DNA of 64,000 nucleotides, from the IMG/VR virus record IMGVR_UViG_3300042566_002057, positions 87,951 to 151,950 of that record. The stretch is one strand, 5' to 3'. The DNA is from a virus. The notes under the pieces are model-generated. The model was not told where the DNA came from. It saw only the letters and a list, made by a program, of their open reading frames with translations, and did no database searches. Shown in pieces: positions 7,483-61,713 of the stretch (position 1 is its first letter; the number at the start of each line of letters is the position of its first letter). The translations under genes were made by a program, and so were the position numbers.

Positions 7483-9369
7483 ATGAGTAAAAAAGATGTA
7501 ATAATCGGAATTGACTTAGGAACAACAAACTCCTGTGTCGCAGTCGTAGAGGGCGGTGAGCCAATCGTAATCACAAATGCTGAAGGTAAAAGAACAACAC
7601 CATCTGTTGTAGGTTTTACCGACAAAGATCGAAAAATCGGAGATCCTGCTAAGCGTCAAGCAGTTACTAATCCAAAGAAAACAGTTTATTCAATTAAACG
7701 ATTCATTGGTAAAGATTTTTCAGTATGTAAAGATGAGGTAGGTAGAGTACCTTATGAAGTTACAAACGCTGGTGGTAATGTACCAGGTGTGAAAATTGAC
7801 GATCGTGTTTATACACCTCAAGAAGTTTCAGCAATGATTTTGCAAAAAATGAAAAAGACAGCAGAAGATTATCTTGGTCACGAAGTGAATAGAGCAGTAA
7901 TCACAGTACCAGCTTACTTCGGTGATGCTGAAAGAACTGCAACTATTGAAGCTGGTGAAATCGCTGGTCTTAAAGTTGAAAGAATTATCAATGAACCTAC
8001 AGCAGCCGCTTTAGCTTATGGTCTTGATAAGAAAAATACAGATGCTAAAATCTTAGTATTTGACTGTGGTGGTGGTACTCATGACGTATCTGTACTCGAA
8101 ATCGGTGACGGTGTATTTGAAGTAAAATCTACTGATGGTGATACTCACTTAGGTGGTGACGACTTTGATAACGCAATCATCAACTGGATGGTTGAAGAAT
8201 TTAAGAGTGAGCACAATATGGATTTATCAAAAGATCCTATGGCTTTACAACGTCTTAAAGAGGCGGCTGAAAAAGCTAAAATTGAACTTTCTTCAACATC
8301 ACAAAGTGAAATTAATCTTCCGTATATCACAGCTCAGGATGGAATGCCACTTCACTTTGTTAAACAATTGACTCGTTCTAAATTCGACCAAATGACAGCC
8401 AAATTGGTTGAAAGAACTATCGGTTGTGCTAAAAGTGCTCTTAAGTCAGCTGGACTTAAACCGTCTGAGATTGACGAAGTAATTCTTGTTGGTGGCTCAA
8501 CTCGTATTCCAGCAGTTCAAGAAGCACTTGAATCTTACATTGGAAAGAAACCAAACAAATCTGTTAATCCAGATGAAGTGGTTGCTTTAGGAGCGGCTAT
8601 TCAAGGAGCTGTTCTTACTGGAGGAATCACTGATGTTCTTCTTTTAGATGTAACTCCACTTTCATTGGGTATTGAAACTATGGGAAGTGTAATGACAAAA
8701 TTGATTGAAGCTAACACAACAATTCCGACCCGTAAGTCTGAAACGTTCTCTACAGCGGCTGACAATCAATCATCTGTAGAAATTCATGTTCTACAAGGTG
8801 AGCGTCCTATGGCAAAAGATAACCGTTCTTTGGGTCGTTTCCACTTAGATGGAATCATGCCAGCACCGAGAGGAATTCCTCAAATCGAAGTAACATTTGA
8901 TATTGATGCAAATGGAATTCTTTCTGTATCTGCAAAAGATAAGGCTTCTGGTAAAGAGAATACAATTCGTATTGAAGGTGGTTCTCAATTGACTAAAGAA
9001 GAAATCGAAAGAATGAAAGCAGAAGCTGAGGCAAATGCTGAAGCTGACAAACTTGAAAAAGAAAAAGTTGACAAACTGAATATGGCTGATAGTTTGATTT
9101 TCCAAACGGAAAAACAAATGAAAGAATTCGGTGAGAAGTTAACTGAAGAAGATAAGTCAGCAATTAATGTGGACTTAGACGCACTCAAAAAAGCTCACTC
9201 TGATAAAGATGTTGAATCTATTGAGGAAACTTCTAAAAAGTTGAATGAGACTTGGTCTACAATCTCAACCAGATTGTATCAAGAGTCTTCTCAACCAGAA
9301 CCAACAAATGAGGATAACTCTAATCCGAATGATGAGGTTCAAGACGCAGACTTTGAAGAAGTAAAGTAA
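7483..9369 (+). CDS. dnaK: DnaK (Hsp70) chaperone
   Basis: 628 residues, full length. The ATPase domain opens with [19 protein letters not shown] and contains the conserved [39 protein letters not shown] and [11 protein letters not shown] segments. The substrate-binding domain (from about residue 390) and a helical lid follow, ending in an acidic disordered tail DADFEEVK like that of bacterial DnaK. A phage Hsp70 is unusual; with GrpE at 252 it forms a partial chaperone machine, and no J-domain protein is visible in the window. It likely assists assembly or survival under stress (inference). The phage copy could derive from a Bacteroidota host. Confidence 0.97.
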
Positions 9370-42911: not shown

Positions 42912-43160
42912 ATGGCAACAGAATACACCGGAAATAAGAGTAGTTTAGATACGGGTTATGTTTTTGCTCCTTATATACCAATGACAACATCAGCGAACAT
43001 AGTTGAATATGGTTCTAAGAAAATAAGTAGAAAAAGAAAGATTAATAAGATATTTGATTTAGGATTAAGTATCGATGATGAATTCTCAAGAACTATGAGT
43101 AAATACTCAAAAAAAACTATAATTGCTAATTACTACAAAACAATAAAAATTACACAATGA
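42912..43160 (+). CDS. small protein with capsid-like N-terminus and tag-like segment
   Basis: 82 residues. TGYVFAPYIPMTTSANI near the start resembles the C-terminal strand of some T4-like major capsid proteins, but this is a likeness from memory and the fragment is too short to fold as capsid. Then RKRKINKIFDLGLSI contains a copy of the C-terminal tag in the middle, not the end. Could be a decoy, assembly factor or simply unrelated. It is coupled to the ABC exporter by a 4-nt overlap. Confidence 0.5.
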   Translation: MATEYTGNKSSLDTGYVFAPYIPMTTSANIVEYGSKKISRKRKINKIFDLGLSIDDEFSRTMSKYSKKTIIANYYKTIKITQ

Positions 43161-44953
43161 CAAATATCAAATTAATAAAAAGTATATTAGATTTCTCTAA
43201 ACCATTTAGAACAGAATTACTTCTGGTCTTTTTATGTGTTTTTCTAACTTCAGCGATTGAGGCAGTAACAACATACTTACTTGGTGAGATTTTTAATATC
43301 GCGCAAAAACATTCAACAGAACAAAGTTATTTAGAACCAGCAATTTATCTTGTTGTTTTTGCACTTGTAACTTATCTTATTAAGACATTTATTGTTACTT
43401 ACCAACAAAGACTTGAAGTGCGTAAGTTAGATGTCGCTGTTGCAAATCACTTAAATCATGCTTCAATTTCAAGATACTTTAAGTTCTCGAACGGTCAACA
43501 TATAAATGAACACTCTGGTGTTAAACAAAATATCATCACAACCGGATTTACATCAGTTCAGAATCAAATGAATATGTTTATCTACCAGTTCTTTCCGTCA
43601 CTATCAAACTTTATTGTTTCATTAGTTGTACTTTTCTCTATTAGTCTTACAATAGGTTTTACTTACTTAGGAGTAACTATTTTATTTATCTACTCAATGT
43701 ACTACTTCAATAAAATGATGCAACCTAAAATTCGTGAGGTTCGAGATGCTAGAAATGAGACTTCAAGAACTATTAGTGAACTTTATCGTTATGTTTTTTT
43801 AATTAAGAATGAAGTAGCTGAAAAGAAATCAATTGATGATTTAGATAATGTACAAAGTTTACACCAAAAGTCTTATTCATCTGCTTGGATAGTAGGTATT
43901 AATTGGTTAACTGCAATTAAAATAGGTACATCTTTATTTAGATACTTAACAATTGGAATTGGAGTTTATTTATTATTCTCTGGTCAGATTACTGCAGGTA
44001 GTATCTTCTTAATATTTACTTGGTCGAATCATTTTATAAACTCTCTTTGGATGATTACTGATATGCAAAAACAGTTTATCACTGACAAGATTAACATTGA
44101 AAAGTATTTTGAGATTTTACAAATTGAACCAGATGTAAAAGAGGTTGAACAACCAATTGAAAATGATTTTGCTGGTGATATTGAATTTAATAATGTTAAA
44201 TTTAAGTATCCTGGTAGAAAAAGTTCACACGACTCTGACGAAGTAACTGAGAATGACTGGGTATTAAAAGGAGTTACATTTAATATTAAACAGGGTCAGA
44301 AAGTTGCTTTTGTTGGTGAGTCTGGTTCTGGAAAATCCACAATCGCTAATTTAGTAAGAAGAGCATTTGATCCACAAGAAGGTGAAATCAAAATTAACAA
44401 TCACCTTCTTAAAGAAATATCACTTTCACACTTTTTACAAAAGATTGGATCTGTGGACCAAGAAGTAATTCTGTTCGATAAAAGTTTAAGAGAAAACATT
44501 TCTTTTGGTACTAATAGACTTCTGACAGATGAAGAACTTAATAAGATTGCAAAATTAAGTAGAATAGATTCTTTCTATCCTAAGTTAGAACACGGTTGGG
44601 ACACGATTGTTGGTGAGAAAGGTTCTAAGATATCAGGTGGTGAAAAACAAAGAATTGGTATTGCTAGAGCTTTGGCTAAGAATCCAGAAATTCTTATCTT
44701 TGACGAAGCAACTTCTGCTTTAGACACGGTGTCTGAAAAAGTAGTTCAAAGATCGATTGATGTTTCTTGTAAAGGAAAGACATCTATTATAATTGCACAT
44801 CGTCTTTCGACTGTTAAAAACTGTGATAAGATATTTGTTCTTAGAAACGGTGAAATAATTGGAGAAGGAACACACCAGGAATTACTGGAGAGCTGTGAAT
44901 ATTATGCAGATTTGATTAAGAATCAATTATCACATAAATTAGAAAAAGTATAA
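43157..44953 (+). CDS. ABC exporter (fused transmembrane and ATPase domains)
   Basis: 598 residues. Six hydrophobic segments in the first ~310 residues form an exporter transmembrane domain. The nucleotide-binding domain has Walker A GESGSGKST (about 386-394), Q-loop-like SVDQEVILF, signature ISGGEKQRIGIARAL, Walker B ILIFDEATSALD and the H-loop IIAHRLST. Such exporters move lipids, peptides or drugs. They are rare in phages; the operon context (RNase HI, small tagged genes) gives no substrate. A half-transporter of this kind would dimerise. Confidence 0.93.
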   Translation: MTNIKLIKSILDFSKPFRTELLLVFLCVFLTSAIEAVTTYLLGEIFNIAQKHSTEQSYLEPAIYLVVFALVTYLIKTFIVTYQQRLEVRKLDVAVANHLNHASISRYFKFSNGQHINEHSGVKQNIITTGFTSVQNQMNMFIYQFFPSLSNFIVSLVVLFSISLTIGFTYLGVTILFIYSMYYFNKMMQPKIREVRDARNETSRTISELYRYVFLIKNEVAEKKSIDDLDNVQSLHQKSYSSAWIVGINWLTAIKIGTSLFRYLTIGIGVYLLFSGQITAGSIFLIFTWSNHFINSLWMITDMQKQFITDKINIEKYFEILQIEPDVKEVEQPIENDFAGDIEFNNVKFKYPGRKSSHDSDEVTENDWVLKGVTFNIKQGQKVAFVGESGSGKSTIANLVRRAFDPQEGEIKINNHLLKEISLSHFLQKIGSVDQEVILFDKSLRENISFGTNRLLTDEELNKIAKLSRIDSFYPKLEHGWDTIVGEKGSKISGGEKQRIGIARALAKNPEILIFDEATSALDTVSEKVVQRSIDVSCKGKTSIIIAHRLSTVKNCDKIFVLRNGEIIGEGTHQELLESCEYYADLIKNQLSHKLEKV

Positions 44954-44956
44954 AAA

Positions 44957-45343
44957 ATGGAAGAAAAAAAAGTAATTGTAAGTAAAGAGTTCATTGATAT
45001 TTTCAAGAACTTCAATGTTGTAAATAAAGTTGATGAAATGAAATTAATTTCTGAAAAAGAACTTTATTTATTATTAACTGTTTGTTTAGATAAACACGAT
45101 GATAGTCAACCTACCGTTGTTTATAATTTCCAACCATTTAGAGATAAAGTGATGGAGATATTTGATGTACAGGATGACAAAGAAACTAAAAATGAACTTA
45201 TCAATGAACTCATTTTAGAAACTGGAGATAAATACATTGAAACTGACTGTATAGTTGATGATATGGGTAATGGATTACCAAATCCACTAACTAAAGAAGA
45301 AGTTAGAGATGCAAAAATTTCTATTATTAACAGTGATAATTAA
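44957..45343 (+). CDS. small acidic protein with C-terminal tag
   Basis: 128 residues, acidic and helical (MEEKKVIVSKEFIDIFKNF), with VVYNFQPFRDKVMEIF and the tail EEVRDAKISIINSDN, an imperfect tag. It starts 3 nt after the ABC exporter. Unknown. Confidence 0.52.
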   Translation: MEEKKVIVSKEFIDIFKNFNVVNKVDEMKLISEKELYLLLTVCLDKHDDSQPTVVYNFQPFRDKVMEIFDVQDDKETKNELINELILETGDKYIETDCIVDDMGNGLPNPLTKEEVRDAKISIINSDN

Positions 45344-45376: not shown

Positions 45377-47149
45377 ATGCAAGAAAACCAAAATACCGAG
45401 GAATTAAAAGAACCAGTTGTTGGAAACTTTAAACCTAAAAGAAAATTCTTAAACTTTGTTTCAGCTGTAAACGGAGCGCGTATTCGATTCATACGAGACG
45501 TGGCTTTTCTAAAAGGTGAAAAACTATCTGGGTTCTTAGAAAATGTCATCTTCAAAATCACTATTTGTGAAGAAGGAACTATTAAGTTTGAGGAACAAGA
45601 TGGAACTAATCTTTCTGACGAGAATATGATTAATCGTTTAATCGATGAAATTGATGCGATGGAAGTGACTGGATACGCTCAAAAGTTTGTTGTTAGTGGT
45701 TTAGAGTTTGCTGATGTCAATGGTGACCGATGTTATCTTGAAGTTGAACATCAAAAACCAATCGATAAATTAAAATCTATTTTTGATGATGAAGAAAAGG
45801 TAGAGATTTCTGAAAAAAGTTTGAGTTTAATTGATGATTTATTTGGATCTTCTGATGATGAGTTTGATGAAGATCACGCACTATCTGAGGTGTTAAATAA
45901 TATGGTGATGGAACTTTCGGAAGAAGATGCTAAAACTCTTGTAGAAACAATTGAAAATCCACCAGCTCCTAACGAAAAACTTAAAGAAGCGGCTGAGTCA
46001 TATATGGAAAAACAATTCCGTAAAATGAATGAGGAAAAGGTTATGGAATTGGAGTACCGTATTGAAGAAACTCAGAAAGAAATCATTCGTTATAAAAGTG
46101 ATGTAAAAATGGCTCAGAAAAAGATGGATGAAAAATCAGAGTCTCTAAAAGTACTTGAAAGTAGATTAGAAAGTATGAAACCAGGTGACGAACCAAACGG
46201 ATATGTGTTCTATGTTTCAGAAGAGATTAAAGATATGGAAGGTCTGGATGAAACAGAAGCAAAAGTTGCGGCTAAGATTGCAGACATTATGAAATTAAAA
46301 ATTGATGTCTTAACTGAAATGTTGACTGGTGGTTACTACAAAATCAAAATTGCTAAGAAAGATGATATCACTAATCAAGAGTTTGAGTTAGAAAAAGAAG
46401 TCTATCAAAAAATTGCATCTTTGGATGTAGAAGGTAAACTTTCTATTGTTGATGGTGAGTTTCAGTATCGTGGTAAAATGACTTGGCATCAAATCGTTGG
46501 TAAAATGATTCGTATGGGATTTGAACAAGAACCAGAGTTTGATAAATTGTGTCAGTCTAATTCTTATGACTCTCACGAAGAAGATAAGTCAACTGAAATG
46601 GATCTAGGTAATGGTATGGTTGACTCTGTATCTGAAACTTCAGTTTCTACAAAGCCAACTTCAACAGAGATTAAATCCAAAACTCTTAAAACCTTCAGTG
46701 AAGAAACTACATTAGTAGTTATGGGTACAATTGACCACGATGATAACCGTGATGTTGAGATTACTGATGATTTTACTGGATTTGGAGTGTGTGTTGGTGA
46801 TAAAATGATGAAATCATCTTATGAGTCTGATGGATTTATCTCAATTATGACTTTACCAGAGTTTAAGATGTGGCAATCACAATACCCAGATGCTATGACT
46901 GATGGTGGTGGAATAGGTTCATTTTTACTACCTAACTTCAAGGGAACTATTGGTGTAACTGCTATGATTGATGATGAATTCACAGCTGACTTTGATTTAA
47001 GTGATTTCATTCAACATCAATATGGAATGGAAGAGGCTGAAGTGTTTTTAACATTACCAGAAGGAACTGAGATTGTGAAAATGGGTGATTATCACCAAGT
47101 TCCAGTTGCAGCAATGAGAGATATCAAAATTGATAAAATTATTGAATAA
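45377..47149 (+). CDS. large acidic coiled-coil protein with C-terminal tag
   Basis: 590 residues. A folded N-terminal part (NFVSAVNGARIRFIRDVAFL) precedes an acidic region, a coiled coil at about 215-280 (EYRIEETQKEIIRYKSDVK), and beta-rich domains, ending AMRDIKIDKIIE, a near-perfect C-terminal tag. It is the largest tagged protein. No known domain, and no ATPase motif although it precedes the VWA gene. The gene is coupled to 47149 by one shared base. Confidence 0.6.
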   Translation: MQENQNTEELKEPVVGNFKPKRKFLNFVSAVNGARIRFIRDVAFLKGEKLSGFLENVIFKITICEEGTIKFEEQDGTNLSDENMINRLIDEIDAMEVTGYAQKFVVSGLEFADVNGDRCYLEVEHQKPIDKLKSIFDDEEKVEISEKSLSLIDDLFGSSDDEFDEDHALSEVLNNMVMELSEEDAKTLVETIENPPAPNEKLKEAAESYMEKQFRKMNEEKVMELEYRIEETQKEIIRYKSDVKMAQKKMDEKSESLKVLESRLESMKPGDEPNGYVFYVSEEIKDMEGLDETEAKVAAKIADIMKLKIDVLTEMLTGGYYKIKIAKKDDITNQEFELEKEVYQKIASLDVEGKLSIVDGEFQYRGKMTWHQIVGKMIRMGFEQEPEFDKLCQSNSYDSHEEDKSTEMDLGNGMVDSVSETSVSTKPTSTEIKSKTLKTFSEETTLVVMGTIDHDDNRDVEITDDFTGFGVCVGDKMMKSSYESDGFISIMTLPEFKMWQSQYPDAMTDGGGIGSFLLPNFKGTIGVTAMIDDEFTADFDLSDFIQHQYGMEEAEVFLTLPEGTEIVKMGDYHQVPVAAMRDIKIDKIIE

Positions 47150-47583: not shown

Positions 47584-49125
47584 ATGATAATTAAAAACAT
47601 ACACGAAAAACTTTTGTCTGGTATTCAGACAATGTTGATTGACACGAAAGTCAACCTTCCTTATTATGGTGAGTTCAACCTACACGTAAACTTCCACGAA
47701 CAAGACTCTATTGGTACTTGTGCAGTGAACGTAACTAGTAAAGGTATGAACTTTTTCTATTCACCAAAGTTCTTAGAAGATCTTTCTCAAAAAGAAGTAA
47801 ACTTTATTACTCTTCATGAAGACTTCCACTTACTCTTCAATCACCCACGAAGAACTGTGACTGGTCAATACGACCACAAACTTTCTAATATCGCTCAAGA
47901 CATGATTATCAATCACGTTATTTGGGAAGATATTCCACACGCTTTTGTTGAAATTCCAAAGAACAAAGATGGTAAGAACATGGCACTTTTTGTTCCTAAA
48001 GAGTACCAAGGTAAACTTATCTTTGAGGAACTATATGAGTGGTTGAAAGAAGAAAAAGATAAATGGCAGAAAGAGCAAAAACAAAACTCACAATGTCAGT
48101 CTTGTAACGGTTCCGGTAAGAAAGAACAAGGTCAACAAGGTCAAGGACAGAAAGACCAAAAACAAAAAGGTCAAAGTCAACAACCTGGTGATGGTCAAGG
48201 TCAGGGTGAAGGTGAGAAACAAGAAGGTCAAGGACAGGGTCAACAACCTGGTGATGGCCAAGGTCAAGGACAGAGTCAACAACCTGGTGATGGTCAAGGA
48301 AAAGGCGAGTCTTGTCCAGATTGTCAGGGAACTGGTAATGAAGGTGGTAAAGACTCTAGTGGAAAACCATCTTATGGTCCTTATGGTAAAAATCCATCTA
48401 AAGATGGTGAGTCATTAGATACTTGGTCTAAAGAACAAATCTTCCAAGATATGGAAAATGGTTCTGGTGAGTATATGGACAAACACATCGGTGATGATGT
48501 ACCGGAAGAAATGAGAGATGCGATGGTGAAAGATGTTATGGAGCGACTTGCGGCTCGTGGTCTTTCAGCAGGTAACATCGAACAAACTCTTAACAAACTT
48601 CGTAAGAAGCGTAAAGATTACTTGAAAGAGATTAAAAGAGCGGTATCAAATATGATTTTTGGTACTGTGAAACAAAAGACTATTGTTAAACCTAACCGTC
48701 GTCAAATCTCTGGATTGAAGGGTAATCGTAAAGTAAAAACCAAAATCAACTGTATCTTAGATACATCTGGTTCAATGGGTGGTACTTTTGAGAGAGTTCT
48801 TTCTTATGTTTATCGAAATGACATCGAAATCAATTTGATTGAGGCTGATACCGAAGTTAAATGGATTGAGAACATCAAGAACAAACGTAAGTTAGAGACA
48901 ATGGTGATTAAAGGTCTTGGTGGTACAATTCTACAACCAGCGATTGATTTAGTTGCTGACCAATTCAACGAGTACAACACTGTTGTGTTAACTGATGGTT
49001 ACTGTGATTCACTTGACCTTACTAAGATTAAAGGTAAAGTTCTACTAATCTCAATTGGTGTGAAAGTTCCAATTAGTCGAAGTAACGGTAAAGTTAAACA
49101 GATTATGGTTGAAAAAGAGAACTAA
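47584..49125 (+). CDS. VWA protein with metallopeptidase-like N-terminus and DnaJ-type Cys motifs
   Basis: 513 residues. H78-E-D-F-H82 in LHEDFHLLFNH is a HExxH zinc-peptidase motif typical of the DUF2201-like N-terminal domain. A Gln/Gly-rich linker (about 178-240) is flanked by C171-QS-CNGSG and C244-PD-CQGTG, two CxxCxGxG motifs as in the DnaJ zinc centre, so the linker may be looped out by zinc binding. The C-terminal VWA domain has D393-T-S-G-S-M in LDTSGSMGG (MIDAS). Known VWA partners are MoxR ATPases, but none is adjacent. Role unknown; folding or proteolysis with DnaK/GrpE is speculation. Confidence 0.85.
   Translation: MIIKNIHEKLLSGIQTMLIDTKVNLPYYGEFNLHVNFHEQDSIGTCAVNVTSKGMNFFYSPKFLEDLSQKEVNFITLHEDFHLLFNHPRRTVTGQYDHKLSNIAQDMIINHVIWEDIPHAFVEIPKNKDGKNMALFVPKEYQGKLIFEELYEWLKEEKDKWQKEQKQNSQCQSCNGSGKKEQGQQGQGQKDQKQKGQSQQPGDGQGQGEGEKQEGQGQGQQPGDGQGQGQSQQPGDGQGKGESCPDCQGTGNEGGKDSSGKPSYGPYGKNPSKDGESLDTWSKEQIFQDMENGSGEYMDKHIGDDVPEEMRDAMVKDVMERLAARGLSAGNIEQTLNKLRKKRKDYLKEIKRAVSNMIFGTVKQKTIVKPNRRQISGLKGNRKVKTKINCILDTSGSMGGTFERVLSYVYRNDIEINLIEADTEVKWIENIKNKRKLETMVIKGLGGTILQPAIDLVADQFNEYNTVVLTDGYCDSLDLTKIKGKVLLISIGVKVPISRSNGKVKQIMVEKEN
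48121..48303 (+). repeat. Gln/Gly-rich coding repeat in the VWA protein
   Basis: Imperfect tandem copies of CAACCTGGTGATGGTCAAGG-like units (protein QQPGDGQG) appear at about 48178, 48240 and 48276, joined by GQGQ segments. Low complexity of this kind can expand or contract. Confidence 0.8.
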
Positions 49126-58515: not shown

Positions 58516-59331
58516 ATGAAATATCTTAAATCATTTAATGAAGAGCTAAATCCACAAACTTACAGAAATGCAAGTAGTAAACTTTCTTACTATGGTAAAC
58601 AAAAAAGTTCTGATGCTCTTTATGATTTTGCTGATGAAAAACAATATGGTTTTTACAACGCAGTAGTTTGTAAAGGACAAAGTATGCCTACTAAAGATGC
58701 TAAGCTAACACAACCTGAACTAAGTGGAATTTATTCCGGAAACAAAGCTAAAGATGGAAATGACAACTTGTTAAAATGGGGTAAAGACATCGAAAATGAA
58801 TTGAACATTTTAGTTGAAAAATGGAAAGCAGGTGATTCTAATTTGAGTTTACAATTTGAGTTCTCTTTTAGAGCTACTCGACAAACAAAAAATGTAGCTA
58901 AGTCATTAGAACAAATGTATATAATACCATTTATTATCTTAGAAGTCAGACTTAGTGAATTTGAATATGGTATTGAAGAATGGGACGCAGAGGCTAGTTG
59001 GGAAAATGAGGAATTCACCCCATCAACACTTTCTGAGATGTTTGAGTATTCTAAAGAGTTTTCAGTTTATACACAAAGACCAATAAGTGATTTAACTTAT
59101 GGTTTATTCAATGATAGACAATCAGCACAAAAATTTAAATCATTTGTAAATTCAATAGTAGATGAGAAAATGAAACCACATATCATGGAAGTATTAAGTA
59201 TTGTTGGTGGAACATCTCAAGATTTAGAGAATATTTTAAATTCAATTAGAAATATTAGAATACACGGTCTTTATCAATCAGATGTTACTGGTTACGAGAC
59301 TATTAAAAATTTATATGATAAACAATTATGA
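58516..59331 (+). CDS. leader-tagged paralogue 1, candidate internal head protein
   Basis: 271 residues starting MKYLKSFNEELNPQTY. Like the next three genes it has the leader, then a YRNASSKLSYYG... helical signature and a late LFNDRQSAQKFKSF motif. A further helical C-terminal part follows. The array layout (one octamer, four overlapping genes) resembles the T4 internal-protein cluster. No enzyme domain. Packaging is inferred from the leader. Confidence 0.65.
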   Translation: MKYLKSFNEELNPQTYRNASSKLSYYGKQKSSDALYDFADEKQYGFYNAVVCKGQSMPTKDAKLTQPELSGIYSGNKAKDGNDNLLKWGKDIENELNILVEKWKAGDSNLSLQFEFSFRATRQTKNVAKSLEQMYIIPFIILEVRLSEFEYGIEEWDAEASWENEEFTPSTLSEMFEYSKEFSVYTQRPISDLTYGLFNDRQSAQKFKSFVNSIVDEKMKPHIMEVLSIVGGTSQDLENILNSIRNIRIHGLYQSDVTGYETIKNLYDKQL

Positions 59332-60053
59332 GATACTTAAAAAAATTTAATGAAGAGTTAAGACCTATGACATATATGTCAGCTGCTAGAAAGTTAGATA
59401 AAATGGGTCACCATGATAGAGCTACTGTACTTAAAGACTGGGCTGGAGAAATGGAAAAGAAAGAAGAAATGCTCAAATGGAAAGACCGTATTCAGGACTA
59501 TGCCCCATTTGGTACATTTAATCTGACTGTAAAAAATCCAGAGACTGGTAAAAAGTTAGTAGGTGATTTCCATTTAGATATTAATTTTGATGATTTAAGT
59601 TTTTCTGATGAACCAGAAAACGGAATAGGTTTATTTATAGGTTTAATTCCTTCATCTGAAGAACTGATTTATCAGTATATGGAATTGTGTGCTGATCATG
59701 ACTTTGGAAACGGTTTCTTCTGGGGTAAAATATTCCACATGAACTATAAATTAACAGATAAAGTAGAATTTACTAAGTGGAATCTCTGGGATTATGATAG
59801 TGAAATGAATGGTGAAGTAGCTTTTTCTGACAGAGCTTCTGCTAATAAATTTAAGAATCTACTTATTAAAATATTTACTGATCCTAATTTAGGATATCCA
59901 TCTGGTTATAATGATGTTGAGTATATGTATCAAAAATTACAAGCATCAATATTAATTGAAAATTCCTTCTCATCAGAGTATGGATTAGAACTAGAACACA
60001 TAGCTGATTATATCAAAACAATATCTCCAAACGTACTTTATAAAGCTCTATGA
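59328..60053 (+). CDS. leader-tagged paralogue 2, candidate internal head protein
   Basis: 241 residues starting MRYLKKFNEELRPMTY, followed by MSAARKLDKMGHHDRATVL and AFSDRASANKFKNLL. Overlaps paralogue 1 by ATGA. Paralogues 2-4 share YxxAxKLxxMGHxxR more clearly than paralogue 1. Confidence 0.65.
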   Translation: MRYLKKFNEELRPMTYMSAARKLDKMGHHDRATVLKDWAGEMEKKEEMLKWKDRIQDYAPFGTFNLTVKNPETGKKLVGDFHLDINFDDLSFSDEPENGIGLFIGLIPSSEELIYQYMELCADHDFGNGFFWGKIFHMNYKLTDKVEFTKWNLWDYDSEMNGEVAFSDRASANKFKNLLIKIFTDPNLGYPSGYNDVEYMYQKLQASILIENSFSSEYGLELEHIADYIKTISPNVLYKAL

Positions 60054-60922
60054 AACACTTAAAGTCATATAATTTATTTGAGGAACTTAAATCAGATACC
60101 TATAAACAGGCTGGTGATAAGTTAAAGAATATGGGTCATATAAGAAGAGGTACCGAATTATTAACTTATGCAGAAGAAATAAAGTTAAGAGAAGAAAAAG
60201 CTAAACATCAACAAAAATTTGACAGTCTAGAAAAATGGGGAATTTTTGACCTTTCAATATATCGAGGAAGATGGGACTCAACAATTAAAAGTACAACGTT
60301 TTCTGATCCAAAAATTTCAGGAAAGTTTCTTATAGAATGTGTTTTTGACGGTAGTTGGTTTTCGGATATGATAGACAATTGGTTAGATGAAGATAAACAA
60401 TACAATCTTAGTTTTCCAATAGAAGTATCTTTAATGCCATATGATGATGAGACTTTAATTAAATTCAAAGAACTTGTTGAAAAAGATGAATTCAGTAGAG
60501 AAACTTATAATGGACTTCTACCATCTTCAAGAGTTTGGATAACAATTATTAGAGGAGGACAAGTTAATATTTCAAATAATGGACCAGTATTCTGGGAGGC
60601 TGTTGAAAGTGATTATGTCTTTTTCAATAATAGATCAGAAGCTATGAAGTTTAAATCACTTTTAGTTTCTGCAATCAGTGGTCAAAATGATTACTGTTCT
60701 AGTCCATACTCAAAAGGATTACATAAGGACATCATTGAGTTTATCGAACGAGAAGAAAAAGTTCAACAAGAAATAGAAGAAGGAAAAGAAAGAGAAGAAT
60801 GTTCTGATAGATATAAATACAACAGAATTAAAGAACATGGTCCTGTAGTTAAAATGGAAGATTTTCCTAAGATTGTAAGTTCAGTAAAGTCATTCTCACT
60901 AAATCAATTATATAAAGACTAA
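60050..60922 (+). CDS. leader-tagged paralogue 3, candidate internal head protein
   Basis: 290 residues starting MKHLKSYNLFEELKSDTY; LFE before E is the likely leader end. KQAGDKLKNMGHIRRGTEL and FFNNRSEAMKFKSLL are the family motifs. It carries an extra charged C-terminal part (QQEIEEGKEREECSD) not seen in the others. Confidence 0.65.
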   Translation: MKHLKSYNLFEELKSDTYKQAGDKLKNMGHIRRGTELLTYAEEIKLREEKAKHQQKFDSLEKWGIFDLSIYRGRWDSTIKSTTFSDPKISGKFLIECVFDGSWFSDMIDNWLDEDKQYNLSFPIEVSLMPYDDETLIKFKELVEKDEFSRETYNGLLPSSRVWITIIRGGQVNISNNGPVFWEAVESDYVFFNNRSEAMKFKSLLVSAISGQNDYCSSPYSKGLHKDIIEFIEREEKVQQEIEEGKEREECSDRYKYNRIKEHGPVVKMEDFPKIVSSVKSFSLNQLYKD

Positions 60923-61713
60923 TGAAAAAATTATCAACATATAATAAGTTCAATGAAGAGTTAAAATCTTCTACCTATTTAAGTGCTGCTCAAAAACTTC
61001 AGAAAATGGGTCATAGTAGAAGACCAGAAGTTCTTAAAGCTTGGGCTGAAGAAGTTAGACAAAGAGAAACTGATAGAATAACTAAGAAGAATCTAGAAGA
61101 ATCTGAAAAGTTAGGTCTTTATCAAATAAAAATCAAAACTAATAAAAGACATTTTGATGCCAATGTTTATATTTCTTTATCTTGGATTGACGACACATTT
61201 AGTGATTCAGTATACGATTTTAAGAATGATGAAAGTAGCGGTTTATACCTACAGTTTAGTTTTGGATTAATTCCAGCTGATGCTGAAACTCTTGATAACT
61301 TTAATGAATGTCTAAATGACTTTTTAAGTCCAAGTTATGGAATTTGGTGGTTACAAGATATGTGGTTATGTGTAAGTAAATCAATGTCATCAGTAACTGA
61401 ACAGGATATTAAAATGTATCCTGACTTAGATCCTGATAAAGATTTGATACCAAGTCCAAATTGTAGCTTTGAGGGCATTGAAATATCAACAGCTTATTTT
61501 AGCAACAGACAAAGTGCTATGAAATTTAAGCAAACTCTTTATAACATATTTAGCTCCAATTTAATATACAGACAAAGTTCAGAAAATCCAGGAGGAATGG
61601 CTGAAAAAATCAGAGAAGAAATCGTTGGTGAACACGGATTTGGATTCGATGAATACTTGAGATTTGTTGAAGGTATTAAATTAATTAGAATCAATTCTTT
61701 ATATAGAGATTAA
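60922..61713 (+). CDS. leader-tagged paralogue 4, candidate internal head protein
   Basis: 263 residues starting MKKLSTYNKFNEELKSSTY, with LSAAQKLQKMGHSRRPEVL and YFSNRQSAMKFKQTL. It is nearest to paralogue 2 in motif pattern. Overlaps paralogue 3 (TAATG). The four genes differ strongly outside these motifs, as expected for old duplications under fast divergence. Confidence 0.65.
   Translation: MKKLSTYNKFNEELKSSTYLSAAQKLQKMGHSRRPEVLKAWAEEVRQRETDRITKKNLEESEKLGLYQIKIKTNKRHFDANVYISLSWIDDTFSDSVYDFKNDESSGLYLQFSFGLIPADAETLDNFNECLNDFLSPSYGIWWLQDMWLCVSKSMSSVTEQDIKMYPDLDPDKDLIPSPNCSFEGIEISTAYFSNRQSAMKFKQTLYNIFSSNLIYRQSSENPGGMAEKIREEIVGEHGFGFDEYLRFVEGIKLIRINSLYRD

Follow-up and report, generated by a model that had tools for sequence, protein, structure and literature searches.

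A predicted zinc site in two halves brackets a hypervariable linker loop in a metallopeptidase–VWA protein of huge phages

Group 2.2 jumbo phages encode a MoxR AAA+ ATPase together with a vWA cochaperone that is fused to an N-terminal metallopeptidase, and the pair has been proposed to take part in building the virion, where it would process structural proteins (Iyer et al., 2021; PMC7824862). Homologs of equal architecture, with an ATPase gene upstream, are present in phage G and Xanthomonas XaC1. A second point of comparison is NorQ/NorD, whose target is nitric oxide reductase. In two reports (PMC13036017, PMC9976466), NorD is composed of an N-domain, a disordered linker of about 100–150 aa that is essential for remodelling, and a C-terminal VWA domain with a VWA finger. 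According to PMC13036017, the tested deletions in this linker gave inactive enzyme, and the distance that it spans differs between states of the NorQD complex.

The DNA analysed here, referred to as the window, is a stretch of 64,000 nucleotides (positions 87,951 to 151,950 of the viral record IMGVR_UViG_3300042566_002057). It encodes a 513-aa protein which, like the jumbo-phage cochaperone, has an N-terminal metallopeptidase fused to a vWA domain and, like NorD, has a disordered linker between the two. Judged from its sequence, this protein is the protease-plus-adaptor half of the known MoxR/VWA chaperone–cochaperone pair of jumbo phages, a context that the preliminary description of the locus had left out. 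The phage G and XaC1 type of homolog has a shorter linker and no Cys pair, whereas the window family carries a putative split zinc module around a loop of 25–184 residues. NorD also differs from the 513-aa protein, in that the available text of the two reports neither describes its N-domain as a peptidase nor mentions a zinc clasp. The relevant features are as follows, in window coordinates unless stated otherwise.

Record 86280–87347, − strand: DnaJ, 0.6 kb before the window start (TIGR02349, PF00226, PF00684, PF01556)
252–740, − strand: GrpE (named from sequence)
7483–9369, + strand: DnaK (named from sequence)
44957–45343, + strand: small conserved neighbour, 128 aa (conserved gene order)
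45377–47149, + strand: conserved upstream neighbour, 590 aa, with a coiled-coil-like centre and no confident family (conserved gene order)
47584–49125, + strand: metallopeptidase–VWA protein, 513 aa, DUF2201_N + putative split zinc module + DUF2201 (ORF, Pfam)
47659–48090, + strand: zincin-type metallopeptidase domain, residues about 26–169, ending at the helix that precedes motif 1 (PF13203)
47815–47829, + strand: HExxH motif HEDFH, residues 78–82 (alignment of 37 homologs)
48094–48117, + strand: putative zinc half-motif 1, CQSCNGSG, residues 171–178 (motif search, clade spacing)
48118–48312, + strand: QG-rich repeat of 65 aa, proposed to be looped out (composition, DNA repeat, low pLDDT)
48313–48336, + strand: putative zinc half-motif 2, CPDCQGTG, residues 244–251 (motif search, clade spacing)
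48505–48735, + strand: helices and a conserved basic stretch (KTIVKPNRRQISGLKG), candidate MoxR contact (conservation; role inferred)
48736–49122, + strand: VWA domain with MIDAS DTSGS (393–397), T448, and D471 (PF09967, VIA-align)
48760–48774, + strand: MIDAS DTSGS, residues 393–397 (motif)

The preliminary description had placed two CxxCxGxG motifs around a QG-rich repeat, between a HExxH domain and a MIDAS VWA domain, and the ORF, the motif positions, and the Pfam matches confirmed that all of these parts are real. The N-terminal part matched PF13203 (DUF2201_N, putative metallopeptidase) above the cutoff (E = 7.3e-19), with the match extending into the QG repeat as far as residue 227, and the C-terminal part matched PF09967 (DUF2201, VWA-like) with E = 6e-6 and 26.9 bits against a cutoff of 26.4. 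A first scan found 50 viral loci with relatives of the protein, and both Pfam families were matched by all 37 homologs scanned. The NCBIfam scan assigned the 513-aa protein to no family. In the alignment of 37 homologs, H78, E79, H82, H87, and D106 were invariant, as were the MIDAS/VWA residues D393, S395, S397, T448, and D471; D106 may be the third metal ligand. The KTIVKPNRRQISGLKG stretch preceding the VWA domain was strongly conserved, yet had low pLDDT at residues 360–384, and it is a candidate contact for MoxR.

Members of this DUF2201_N + DUF2201 family carry the label "HNH endonuclease" in PHROG 1314 (phrog_1314) and in many GenBank phage records (H6–H38). Since the members match DUF2201_N and DUF2201, and the Pfam families listed for the 37 scanned homologs include no HNH model, the name is probably a misannotation that is spreading.

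Two viral-contig scans, GenBank phages, and two bacterial genome loci together yielded 66 distinct homologs. Between protease and VWA, exactly two CxxC motifs were found in 52 of them, four in one (L068), and none in 12, and the remaining homolog, L006 from the 735-kb phage LR756501, had a Cys-rich segment of a different kind with a single CxxC. Counting L068, which is paired twice over, paired Cys motifs were thus present in 53 of the 66. The pair was of the CxxCxGxG type at both positions in 31 homologs and of the CPxCG type in 22, with the sister clade spelling it CPxCG/CPxCGHE where the window clade has CxxCxGxG/CxxCxGxG. When the 513-aa protein was shuffled, at least one CxxCxGxG arose in only 21 of 20,000 shuffles; this, together with the retention of both motifs in nearly all of the clade, shows that they are not due to chance. 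None of the nine bacterial genome loci found had the zinc pair.

In a tree built without the loop, the DnaJ-type and ribbon-type homologs formed separate clades. Both motifs were kept in 31 of the 33 members of the DnaJ-type clade, and the other two, L037 and L098, had lost both jointly. The motif changed state about five times on the tree, and because these independent evolutionary events are few, no strong statistics are claimed. The Pfam zinc-ribbon models PF13240 and PF13248 recognized part of the CPxCG-type members (best E = 1.9e-4 among the 37 scanned), although, in contrast to zinc ribbons, the knuckles of the sister clade are 33–184 residues apart, and L068 has four copies.

The distances around the motifs differed greatly in their constancy. 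Within the DnaJ-type clade, 93.1 ± 1.7 residues separated HExxH from motif 1 and 148.8 ± 1.3 separated motif 2 from MIDAS, whereas the start-to-start distance between the motifs was 55.7 ± 20.1 residues (range 25–90); the corresponding span in the ribbon-type clade was 33–184. The only strongly length-variable segment was therefore the one bracketed by the motifs, with both flanks nearly fixed. In the window protein, the 65-residue segment that separates the motifs consists of 35% Q and 31% G and lacks hydrophobic residues, and the underlying DNA contains a 36-bp repeat unit in 2.1 copies with a 95% match.

Several homologs depart from this pattern. L068 (7881–10016) carries its four motifs, spelled CGKCG, within 64-aa tandem repeats, so that knuckle and loop are duplicated as one unit. 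The 719-aa homolog L005 (5947–8106, from LR756504) and L065 have a long insert at the linker site with no zinc motifs, and the insert of the former has an OmpA-like match below the cutoff (PF00691, E = 0.0015).

AlphaFold2 modelled the full 513-aa protein with moderate confidence (pLDDT 70.8) and a clear VWA domain, which VIA-align matched to known VWA domains, at best to one of collagen VII with a Z of 12.6 and an rmsd of 2.4 over 130 residues. Since residues 174–253 had pLDDT below 50 in this model, with the motif region disordered and no confident zinc site, residues 1–254 of an ortholog with a short loop were modelled (pLDDT 85.4). Nearly all of the top PDB matches of this N-domain were zincin metallopeptidases, with modest scores (selecase, Foldseek E = 0.007; BlaR1, Z 5.7; SPRTN, Z 5.2). 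In the short-loop model, DSSP marked isolated bridge residues at 178 and 194, right after motif 1 and right before motif 2, in a region with pLDDT of about 50–70 (about 66–69 around the motifs). If they pair with each other, as we assume, this is what would be expected for meeting motifs. The PDB match lists contained no zinc-finger match to the short-loop model, the part being so small that such lists scarcely test it. A sequence search for solved relatives yielded only two matches, both weak and both linking the low-complexity part to histone chaperones.

Because the two Cys motifs come and go together, the two half-motifs probably hold a single zinc ion between them and pinch off the loop. 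The preliminary description had anticipated a single zinc centre from which the repeat loops out, and this predicted arrangement is supported by the paired presence and loss of the motifs, their joint change of type, the constant flanks, and the bridge residues of the ortholog model. Paired inheritance, constant flanks, and bridge residues together favour it. With a dozen homologs lacking the site and L006 having one CxxC, the paired Cys site is not needed for the core function. Among the open-access papers searched, none was found to describe paired zinc half-sites that enclose a hypervariable loop.

MoxR-type ATPase genes were found within 0–7 kb of many homologs, directly adjoining in LR756501, and MoxR is also encoded by the ~640-kb relatives LR745206, LR756502, and LR756504, in the first of them around 523,010–524,086. 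While the MoxR gene of the jumbo-phage pair lies in the neighbourhood, in the nearest relatives of the window protein it is 8–21 kb off; eight contigs of the window's own clade have it at this distance downstream and in the same orientation. No MoxR was found in the 152-kb record that holds the window, which is a fragment; its AAA_5/AAA_3 matches belonged instead to a ClpB/ClpC-like protein with two AAA domains and to an ABC transporter. Two relatives, G003 and G011, also had no MoxR match, each with at least 24 kb of downstream sequence. The gene order past the VWA gene is common to the window and its nearest relative, in which the counterpart of the window's last ORF lies about 5 kb before MoxR. 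Based on this synteny, the MoxR gene of the window phage is probably located about 5 kb beyond the end of the contig. In the homolog L102 (7971–9383), HNNYH replaces HExxH with loss of the catalytic Glu, there are no zinc motifs, and a MoxR gene adjoins; it is likely an inactive protease that still keeps its partner.

On the upstream side, a homolog of the 590-aa neighbour preceded the VWA gene in 27 of 31 DnaJ-type loci, and the 590-aa protein is a possible partner or substrate of the 513-aa protein. A homolog of the 128-aa neighbour occurred in 18 of the 31. An ABC transporter-like ORF comprising a membrane part and an ATPase (43157–44953), an unusual phage cargo, had no counterpart close to the gene at any of these 31 loci. 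Elsewhere in the window, four consecutive ORFs (58516–61713) form a tandem paralog family whose homologs cross-match one another.

Taking these results together, we consider it reasonably probable that the protein is a MoxR AAA+/VWA adaptor-protease with a zinc-clasped linker, which is pulled by MoxR and clips a structural protein. This joint explanation is based on the architecture, the invariant catalytic and MIDAS residues, the paired conservation and loss of the motifs, the constant flanks, and the MoxR genes of relatives; zinc binding, the four-Cys site, MoxR binding, force transmission, proteolysis, and the substrate are what we infer. An N-terminal zincin metallopeptidase would be joined by a long linker to a C-terminal MIDAS VWA domain, and the two CxxC half-sites of the linker would meet around one zinc ion and pinch off the hypervariable, hydrophilic loop. 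The MoxR ring would grip the VWA domain and, powered by ATP, twist or pull it with respect to the protease domain, by which a phage structural protein would be remodelled and clipped during virion assembly. The zinc clasp would hold the effective length of the tether between the two domains steady as the loop gains or loses residues, for which slippage of the repeat is the probable cause. In analogy to NorD, whose linker is essential, we propose that such a clasp may fix the protease–VWA tether in a MoxR-driven machine.

A further reading, which we regard as unlikely, would make the clasp a mechanical element in an AAA+-pulled linker. It would either be set by strain, opening under MoxR force to release 25–184 residues of slack, or serve as a length gauge, in which slippage would vary an exposed loop, one that could bind substrate or act as a decoy, and leave the protease–VWA tether unchanged. 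In this reading each of two huge-phage clades would have its own form of the predicted clasp, one built from DnaJ-like knuckles and the other from ribbon knuckles.

The spelling of the motifs invites a different explanation, in which they form a zinc chaperone part that replaces DnaJ and works with the DnaK and GrpE of the phage. In DnaJ, two CxxCxGxG motifs make one zinc centre, and the 513-aa protein shares these motifs with the DnaJ zinc-finger domain (PF00684). The preliminary description had suggested such a substitute on the grounds that DnaK and GrpE are present with no visible DnaJ. The window does encode both, but the lack of DnaJ holds for the window only. The search for an HPD motif elsewhere in the genome, for which that description had called, found a canonical DnaJ, close to GrpE, with a J domain containing HPD, four CxxCxGxG motifs, and a C-terminal domain (TIGR02349, E = 4e-112). 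J-domain proteins were also present in all five relatives checked. The 513-aa protein has no Pfam J domain at E up to 1, no HPD in its ORF, and no C-terminal domain of DnaJ; it has two motifs instead of the four of the DnaJ central domain, with a low-complexity loop between them, and the only PF00684 match in the record was the real DnaJ. Moreover, since the sister clade has ordinary zinc-ribbon-type CPxCG motifs at the same place, the DnaJ-like spelling carries no DnaK-specific message. The idea of a DnaJ substitute is consequently abandoned as extremely improbable. Besides DnaJ, the genomes LR756501, LR756502, and LR756504 each contain several more weak PF00684-like loci, and these huge phages may be unusually rich in CxxCxGxG fingers.

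Two further accounts leave the Cys pairs in the linker with a role of another kind. They could act as a redox switch, with disulfides formed on oxidation opening or closing the loop and so regulating the protease. CxxC pairs are capable of redox activity, and PMC13036017 reports that a disulfide at the ATP site inhibits NorQ; but both CxxCxGxG and CPxCG are characteristic of zinc knuckles, Pfam zinc-ribbon models recognize ribbon-type members, and no thioredoxin-like context happened to be noticed. We regard a switch as quite improbable. Somewhat unlikely, in our judgement, is a passive structural zinc knuckle that guards the disordered linker from degradation or aggregation and has no role in tether length or force. 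Such a knuckle could be dispensed with, as seen from its loss in L037 and L098 and its absence in other clades, and the linker of L037 remains hydrophilic without the cysteines. Against it stand two motif types maintained at one place and flanks that are nearly constant around a strongly variable loop. These two observations suggest that the way in which both ends are kept together is constrained.

MoxR/VWA machines are widespread, but how they work is little understood; at the heart of the published NorQD model is the stretching of the linker that joins the N-domain to the VWA domain. A natural family in which a predicted paired zinc site brackets this linker, the loop varies freely, and some relatives have no clasp would allow a direct test of the role of tether length. 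The zinc-clasped adaptor-protease would also give a concrete hypothesis of function for a protein that is common across huge phages and often annotated as an "HNH endonuclease".
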